Notes under the pieces: model-generated
Seen by the model: the letters and a program-made list of their open reading frames with translations, nothing else
The model's database searches: none
What the model was told of the DNA's origin: nothing
Program-made: the position numbers and the translations under genes
Shown: piece by piece, positions 23,797-35,402 of the stretch
Layout: every line of letters starts with the position of its first letter
Numbering within the stretch: the stretch's first letter is position 1
Assembly (NCBI GenBank): GCA_904420465.1
Contig: CAJFVL010000012.1
Location: 1 to 35,402 of the forward strand
Length of the DNA stretch: 35,402 bases
Source of the DNA: an uncultured Clostridium sp.
GTDB taxonomy: Bacteria; Bacillota; Clostridia; Oscillospirales; Oscillospiraceae
Reading direction: 5' to 3'

Positions 23797-23970
23797 AAAG
23801 ATGATAGAGGCGCAAAGCTCATCAGTATCCCCGTCCAGGCGCACAACCGCCGGCGAAGCGGGGAGAAAGGGTGCTTTGCCGAAATGGGGCGCCGGATTGT
23901 GCGGCGTTCTGTTGGGCGGCGGGATAAGATCCCGACGACTGTCACACTGCGTGAAGCGCTATCGTTCTTT
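23797..23970 (+). ncRNA. Lysine riboswitch (L box) aptamer
   Basis: P1 AAAGATGATAG/CTATCGTTCTTT; conserved AGAGGCGC...AGTA, GGGTGCTTTGCCGAA, P4 CGGGATAAGATCCCG, ACTGTCA; L2 CACAA (23842-23846) complementary to L3 TTGTG (23897-23901). Confidence 0.92.
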
Positions 23971-34561: not shown

Positions 34562-35014
34562 TCAACGCTCCTTTCTCAGTCCTAGAGCTTCTTTGATTTT
34601 CTTGACATACCGCCGGGAGACATAGGTGCTGACCGAATGATTCAGGGTCATGCGGATGGTCCCTGTCAAGGACAGGTCCAGGGCGGTGACACGGTCCAGA
34701 TTGACAATCTCCGAATTGGAGATGCGGACAAACCGCCGCCGGTCCAGCCGCTCCTCCAGCTCATACAGCCGCAGACGGACAGCGTATACATCCTGTTCAG
34801 TCTGGGCCGACACTCCCCGGCCGTCGGCGTAGAAGCGGAGAAAATCCCGCTGCGCCACCACATCGGCTCTGTCTCCGCGCCACACGGTGAGAGGGCCCAG
34901 AGACAGCCCGGCCAGCTGGCCGGCCAGCTCCTCCAGCTCCGGGGTGGCCTCCGCCGACAGAATGATGATTTTAGGCTCTCTCCGGCCTGGCTCCAGTTTC
35001 CATTCCACATCCAC
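34562..35014 (-). CDS. LytTR-domain DNA-binding regulator (GTG start)
   Basis: RRRFVRISNSEIVNLDRVTALDLSLTGTIRMTLNHSVSTYVSRRYVKKIKEALGL; RBS GGAAGGAGGGG before VDVEWKLE; tracked start at 35224 would run through the tRNA-like promoter. Confidence 0.88.
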   Translation of the reverse strand: MDVEWKLEPGRREPKIIILSAEATPELEELAGQLAGLSLGPLTVWRGDRADVVAQRDFLRFYADGRGVSAQTEQDVYAVRLRLYELEERLDRRRFVRISNSEIVNLDRVTALDLSLTGTIRMTLNHSVSTYVSRRYVKKIKEALGLRKER

Positions 35015-35132
35015 GGAAATCCCCTCCTTCCCCGTTCCAGTTTCAGTATAGCCAAGTCCCCGCGCCCCGTCCAGCGTTTTGGCGCAGACGGTCGTTTTCA
35101 GCGTACATCTGGCGCTGCCGCAGGATTTGCGG

Positions 35133-35161
35133 TTGACAGGGCCGCCGCCTTGGGATAAAAT
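35133..35161 (+). promoter_or_regulatory. Consensus promoter of the tRNA-like array
   Basis: TTGACA - 17 nt - TAAAAT, 21 nt upstream of first tRNA-like unit. Confidence 0.75.
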
Positions 35162-35182: not shown

Positions 35183-35251
35183 GCCCCCGTAGCTCAGTTG
35201 TATAGAGCGACCGCCTCCTAACAATCGAACCGTTCGAATCCCGGAGCCTTG
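35183..35251 (+). tRNA. tRNA-Arg(CCU)-like unit 1: canonical 5' half, non-canonical 3' half
   Basis: Acceptor GCCCCCG, D-arm GCTC/GAGC, anticodon loop CTCCTAA; the anticodon 3' strand and acceptor 3' strand do not pair; residual TTCGAAT is displaced. Confidence 0.5.
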
Positions 35252-35275
35252 TATAACTGAATAATTTCTGTATAT

Positions 35276-35352
35276 GCCCCCGTACCTCAGATGGATAGAG
35301 GGTCCGCCTCCTAAGAGAACTAACTACGGTTCACTAAAGGAGGCGGCGTGGG
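35276..35352 (+). tRNA. tRNA-Arg(CCU)-like unit 2: canonical 5' half, 3' half replaced by a complementary arm
   Basis: GCCCCCG, D-arm CCTC/GAGG, loop CTCCTAA; CCGCCTCCT (35304-35312) pairs with AGGAGGCGG (35338-35346). Confidence 0.5.
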
Positions 35353-35381
35353 ATAACTTTGTTAAGTTCAAAATTTAATAT

Positions 35382-35402
35382 GTGCCAGTAGCTCAGTTGG
35401 AT
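35382..35402 (+). tRNA. Third tRNA or tRNA-like unit, truncated by window end
   Basis: GTGCCAGTAGCTCAGTTGGAT: acceptor 5' strand plus start of D-arm. Confidence 0.5.

Follow-up and report, generated by a model that had tools for sequence, protein, structure and literature searches.

The window analysed here is the whole stretch of 35,402 nt that forms bases 1–35402 of contig C12, from a draft genome of 133 contigs that is 88.6% complete, and it ends inside an array of truncated tRNA-like units. Beside the array lies a divergent host gene encoding a LytTR DNA-binding domain (34562–35020, minus strand, start codon approximate; Pfam PF04397, E = 1.5e-20), and this upstream flank is similar in several array-bearing congeners. 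On the plus strand between 34900 and 35402 the sole promoter-like site found was a sigma-70-type TTGACA-17-TAAAAT at 35133–35161, with 11 of 12 consensus bases, which we take as the promoter of the original tRNA gene; the first units of relatives' arrays are also preceded by similar promoters. No promoter-like site was found in the tails that follow the units in the window, and some tails in relatives (e.g. L072) contain promoter-like sequence, as read by eye. Elsewhere in the window, a lysine riboswitch at 23797–23969 (RF00168, 110 bits) was the sole Rfam match at the gathering threshold.

The units, all on the plus strand, start at 35183, 35276 and 35382, as an initial annotation made from the letters alone had placed them. 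Units 1 (35183–35221) and 2 (35276–35314) both begin with the acceptor 5′ strand GCCCCCG, continue with a D-arm and reach as far as the anticodon loop CTCCTAA (35215–35221 and 35308–35314, respectively), after which tail 1 (35222–35275) and tail 2 (35315–35381) follow. That annotation saw no full cloverleaf in either of them, and ARAGORN and Rfam agree: neither program reported a complete tRNA at the array, and ARAGORN did not accept units 1 and 2 joined to their own tails as tRNAs. A T-loop-like GTTCGAATC, which the initial annotation had overlooked, is retained in the tail of unit 1. Unit 3 (35382–35402) is cut by the contig end after 21 nt. Tandem Repeats Finder yielded nothing.

Comparison with related loci placed a crossover point at the core of unit 1, where identity drops towards the left, 50–55 of 55 positions being identical on its right side and 10–31 of 35 on its left. 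Tail 1, which we read as the left end of a first inserted element, is 100% identical to L173, a locus of Candidatus Avoscillospira, and 98% identical to L155, L140 and G011. Unit 2 is near-identical to the 5′ halves of intact element tRNAs in G011 and G026, as expected of the replacement tRNA of that first element, split by a second insertion. Tail 2, the putative left end of the second element, is identical together with the start of unit 3 over 88 of 88 nt to L140 (Angelakisella massiliensis) and L137, and in L140 the counterpart of unit 3 runs on into a complete tRNA-Arg(CCT) (L140:19974–20050, minus strand). The initial annotation had taken the differing D-stems (GCTC/GAGC in unit 1, CCTC/GAGG in unit 2) as a sign of selection on the fold. 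The sequences are as described there, but the stems differ because each half comes from a complete tRNA gene of its own, that of the host in one case and that of an element in the other. In tail 2, AGGAGGCGG is the reverse complement of CCGCCTCCT, which lies at the core; the two form a strong hairpin (35304–35350), possibly an integrase binding site.

The 3′ half missing from unit 1 was found displaced in the same assembly, at C55:121–165, after 120 nt of other DNA and followed by a terminator-like hairpin and then a flavin oxidoreductase gene. Together with unit 1 it makes up a tRNA-Arg(CCT) that agrees with the intact gene of congener G009 at 76 of 77 positions, and the best reading of unit 1 is therefore a stranded 5′ half left from the gene that the host originally had. 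The link between C12 and C55 is one of sequence logic rather than of reads.

Truncated units and their tails in related genomes

Congeners carry the same arrays, as do other families of the order; there the arrays usually terminate in one intact tRNA-Arg(CCT), and the truncation points likewise lie directly 3′ of the anticodon loop CTCCTAA. The related loci that we fetched contain 112 distinct truncated units, and the pattern is thus not due to chance. Their tails are tied to the next 5′ half, not to the preceding one. Tail GTAGGGAACAGA has three acceptor types to its left and only GCCCGCG to its right, and tail AAATCGAATCGT has six acceptor types to its left and only GCCCCCG to its right. This linkage to the right-hand tRNA implies that the moving unit consists of a tail and the next tRNA, joined to whichever 5′ half was present. 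Many tails start with GCGG and hold a GTTCGA T-loop motif, as if they had descended from an attP that formerly rebuilt the 3′ half of the tRNA; such a descent would fit one route proposed in PMC10865867.

These data bear on one option offered by the initial annotation, that the units are functional RNAs mimicking tRNAs (decoys, guides or processing substrates) and are under selection as such. The D-arm and the anticodon loop are indeed kept, a strong promoter stands ahead of the array, and the two units of the window fold somewhat better than their shuffles (z = −2.4 and −2.7). However, across the 112 units 5′ halves and tails show no coevolution, the real pairs folding no better than swapped ones (means of −21.90 and −21.68 kcal/mol, respectively; Wilcoxon p = 0.88), the tails are linked to the next tRNA instead, and each 5′ half was once the front part of a complete tRNA, with the matching 3′ half located elsewhere in many genomes. 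On the strength of the swapped folds and the tail linkage we rejected an array of mimics, which we consider highly improbable.

L239 (G064:C19:439050–440300) contains four near-same copies of a tail at a pitch of 93 nt, for which no matching displaced 3′ halves were found in G064; it may reflect repeated insertion followed by recombination, or local amplification. At L063:2776–3332, in G019, two units have tails of about 240 nt, compared with the usual 42–85 nt. Arrays of identical units, as in G064, and units that have no displaced partner require recombination or loss as extra steps.

Integrase genes and displaced 3′ halves

In four genomes (G010, G011, G016 and G044) a tyrosine-integrase gene faces the intact tRNA and starts 270–430 nt from the tRNA start; the integrase of G016 was confirmed by Pfam (family PF00589). 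Querying about 85,000 species genomes with the integrase returned 80 loci, many of them from Lachnospiraceae and Oscillospiraceae. A complete tRNA-Arg(CCT) lies 143–263 nt from the integrase in 63 of the 80, and of these 63 loci 61 have the core CTCCTAA, sometimes extended by a following G, at a distance of 49–72 nt on the upstream side of the tRNA, and in 53 a 5′ half can be recognised at the core. Three loci (L100, L102 and L142) carry no tRNA half to the left of the core, reflecting either a non-tRNA site or a lost half, and in L139 and L152 the apparent right end of another element is joined to the left end, in what looks like a tandem or circular attP junction.

Structural hallmarks of tRNA-dependent integration are found here: a tyrosine integrase, a short common core situated in the tRNA anticodon loop, junctions at window units 1 and 2 that rebuild no tRNA, and a complete tRNA of the same isotype in the left end of the element, seen in relatives and, for the second element of the window, through L140. 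Integrase genes with matching att repeats, which the initial annotation had named as a finding that would refute it by explaining each unit as a scar, occur in the relatives, and unit 1 is accounted for by its displaced 3′ half in the same assembly. Within the genome of the window itself, our search returned no continuation of unit 3, no close relative of the integrase and no second element; the element bodies are absent from its assembly, and the integrase behind these particular scars is assigned, putatively, through identical ends elsewhere. Regions of this kind are often lost from metagenome bins. Insertion of elements probably explains why the scar loci end contigs and why tRNA-Arg(CCU) is missing from this bin.

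A first search for displaced 3′ halves, covering the 20 kb downstream of the arrays, retrieved only that of G044, which lies 6.2 kb downstream and forms a tRNA-Arg(CCT) with the oldest 5′ half. When 24 genomes were searched by pattern, many more came to light, farther off (up to about 230 kb downstream) or on other contigs. ARAGORN does not discriminate between specific joins, as it accepted mismatched ones too, and we scored partners instead by the pairing of the acceptor stem (7 pairs) and the anticodon stem (5 pairs), combined with permutation. For 18 of the 24 displaced 3′ halves, all pairs (12/12) form with a truncated 5′ half from their own genome, and six have no perfect partner; shuffling arrays among genomes gave 2.33 such matches on average and never more than 10, with 18 attained in 0 of 20,000 shuffles. 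The order of the halves is mirrored as well. In G010 a nearer displaced half (237 kb) matches the younger unit and a more distant one (394 kb) the oldest, and the same mirror order is seen in G070, where the array is on another contig. G010 also contains a displaced 3′ half with acceptor TATGGAC (L221, near 281464) that has no partner 5′ half in its array, and the matching unit may have been lost.

At 12 loci the 3′ half alone remains, directly preceded by CTCCTAA and unrelated DNA, and these are nested insertions. Such an inner insertion is present in one piece in L140 of Angelakisella massiliensis, about 8.3 kb long and equipped with an intact tRNA of its own. Near the right end of this inner element lies a second tyrosine integrase (L140:11896–13365, minus strand), which is of another type, points away from the element tRNA and may mark a further, inverted or composite insertion.

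The partner halves also bear on whether the units arose as tandem duplicates of a single tRNA gene that then decayed, with no mobile element involved. The units are truncated and adjacent, and the near-identical ones of G064, with their pitch of 93 nt, could stem from unequal crossing-over. Yet the units differ in acceptor and D-arm and all break at the same base, different genera have tails in common, and the missing halves are situated a long way downstream, beyond the ends of elements. The partner halves and the identical truncation points led us to reject the decayed tRNAs that the initial annotation had listed as an option, and as an account of the arrays tandem duplication has, in our view, almost no chance of being correct; local changes in the copy number of units may have arisen by it.

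In one case gene content indicates the kind of element. In Clostridium asparagiforme (CP102272) the tRNA and the displaced half are about 32 kb apart (about 75974–107568), and the genes of the element encode an integrase, a relaxase of the MobA/VirD2 type, a topoisomerase, a TraG-like ATPase, PrgI, a VirB6-like protein and a coupling protein of the VirD4 type. Judged by the gene content between its two attachment ends, this is a complete integrative and conjugative element. It is not a temperate phage of the kind that defines tRNA-dependent lysogeny in the strict sense, having a relaxase, a coupling protein and type IV secretion genes. Other elements (about 6 kb in G044 and 8.3 kb in L140) are too small for a conjugation set and may be mobilizable or decayed.

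Probable successive insertions at tRNA-Arg(CCU)

Taken together, we favour, with a probability of roughly 93%, the reading that the array consists of integration scars left by tRNA-carrying tyrosine-integrase elements and ordered by successive invasions. The array structure, the cores, the partner halves, the nesting and the conjugative gene set were observed directly. The initial annotation had listed att-site scars from elements integrating in tRNA-Arg among its options, and the core, the partner halves and the integrase loci bear out that choice. What it overlooked is that each element brings a complete replacement tRNA, so that the scars queue up to one intact 3′-terminal tRNA.

From these observations we infer a recombination reaction in which the tyrosine integrase would act on tRNA-Arg(CCU) at its anticodon loop, CTCCTAA. 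Next to the integrase, some 60 nt in from its left end, the element carries a complete tRNA-Arg(CCU), and the target gene is not rebuilt at the junction. The product of insertion would then read, in order, host promoter, resident 5′ half, element tail, the element's complete tRNA, integrase, cargo, core and resident 3′ half. The resident tRNA would be destroyed and the element's own would take over, lying just downstream of the host promoter, from which it could be transcribed. The next element would be expected to target the new intact tRNA, the sole gene with both anticodon-stem arms; as only this newest gene keeps both arms around the core, the array would grow at that end. In this way 5′ halves would pile up with the oldest nearest the promoter, and 3′ halves would be displaced downstream in mirror order. 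In the window, unit 1 would then be the 5′ half of the host gene itself, unit 2 the 5′ half of the tRNA brought by the first element, and unit 3 the opening stretch of the tRNA of the second. Old element bodies may decay or vanish while the tRNA persists, as perhaps in G021 and G005, where no integrase was seen beside the tRNA.

More broadly, we are inclined to regard tRNA-Arg(CCU) of gut Clostridia as a contested gene, which conjugative elements would capture in turn, each one owning the cell's tRNA-Arg(CCU), and hence hard to lose, until displaced by the next. The array would then be a time-ordered record of invasion, and the tRNA would have been swapped horizontally many times. The successive-insertion reading explains the contrasting acceptor stems of tRNA-Arg(CCU) among close relatives. 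Under it, the array lists past insertions at a single site in their order, a kind of record that is uncommon among mobile elements and of more interest than an ordinary island.

Relation to known integration systems

The closest parallel is the tRNA-dependent lysogeny of actinobacteriophages (Guerrero-Bustamante and Hatfull, 2024; PMC10865867), compared here on the basis of a portion of that paper. Both systems use a tyrosine integrase and an attB inside a tRNA gene, rebuild no tRNA and carry a complete tRNA of the same isotype. The shared core is 8–17 bp in the phages and 7–8 bp here. The phages are those of Actinobacteria and use tRNA-Lys, Ile2 or Leu, whereas our elements, at least one of them conjugative, reside in Clostridia and use tRNA-Arg(CCU). 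The need of the tRNA for survival was established experimentally for the phages, while the elements reported here are known from their sequences. Stacked arrays of 5′ halves with mirror-ordered 3′ halves are seen here and are not described for the phages in the portion that we used. The same portion cites prophage Lj965 of Lactobacillus johnsonii, which is also from Bacillota, does not rebuild the tRNA and carries a cognate one, but is a single case and a prophage, in contrast to the conjugative element found here. In prophages of Sinorhizobium meliloti (PMC11476347), too, the host tRNA gene is replaced by one resembling that of unrelated bacteria; those elements are phages, and the part of that source available to us describes no stacked scar arrays.

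Fragments of tRNA genes left by integration are widespread (PMC9897764), and a 43.6 kb conjugative element that matches a Faecalibacterium genome is reported from a tRNA-Arg gene of Finegoldia (PMC13041314). In the literature searched, with most subscription journals outside its scope, we found no conjugative elements that follow a replacement-tRNA strategy. Within that literature, both the adoption of this strategy by conjugative elements and the arrays of ordered scars appear to be new; the mode of integration itself is known. Our findings widen the range of tRNA-dependent integration from phages to conjugative elements moving between gut bacterial genera, and answer in part the question, posed in 2024, of how far it reaches beyond actinobacteriophages.

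Classical islands, in which a tRNA fragment in attP rebuilds the gene at the junction, resemble the present elements in other respects. Islander islands (PMC4383910) likewise combine a tyrosine integrase, a tRNA target, a crossover that is often in the anticodon loop and a displaced tRNA fragment at the far end, but they rebuild the target from the attP fragment, whereas here the gene is abandoned and a separate, whole tRNA replaces it. That the window holds such islands is scarcely credible, since its junctions consist of a 5′ half and a tail that make no tRNA, and about 60 nt further on there is a complete new tRNA, whose acceptor stem is often a different one. One classical island may exist at tRNA-Arg(CCU) of Dorea sp. 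5-2 (G061:C9), where an intact tRNA-Arg(CCT) gene and a displaced, near-identical 3′ half are about 11.7 kb apart. Elsewhere in Dorea sp. 5-2, an element of the integrase family occupies a site with no visible tRNA 5′ half, and this genome (L229 and L231) possibly combines a secondary site with a classical island.
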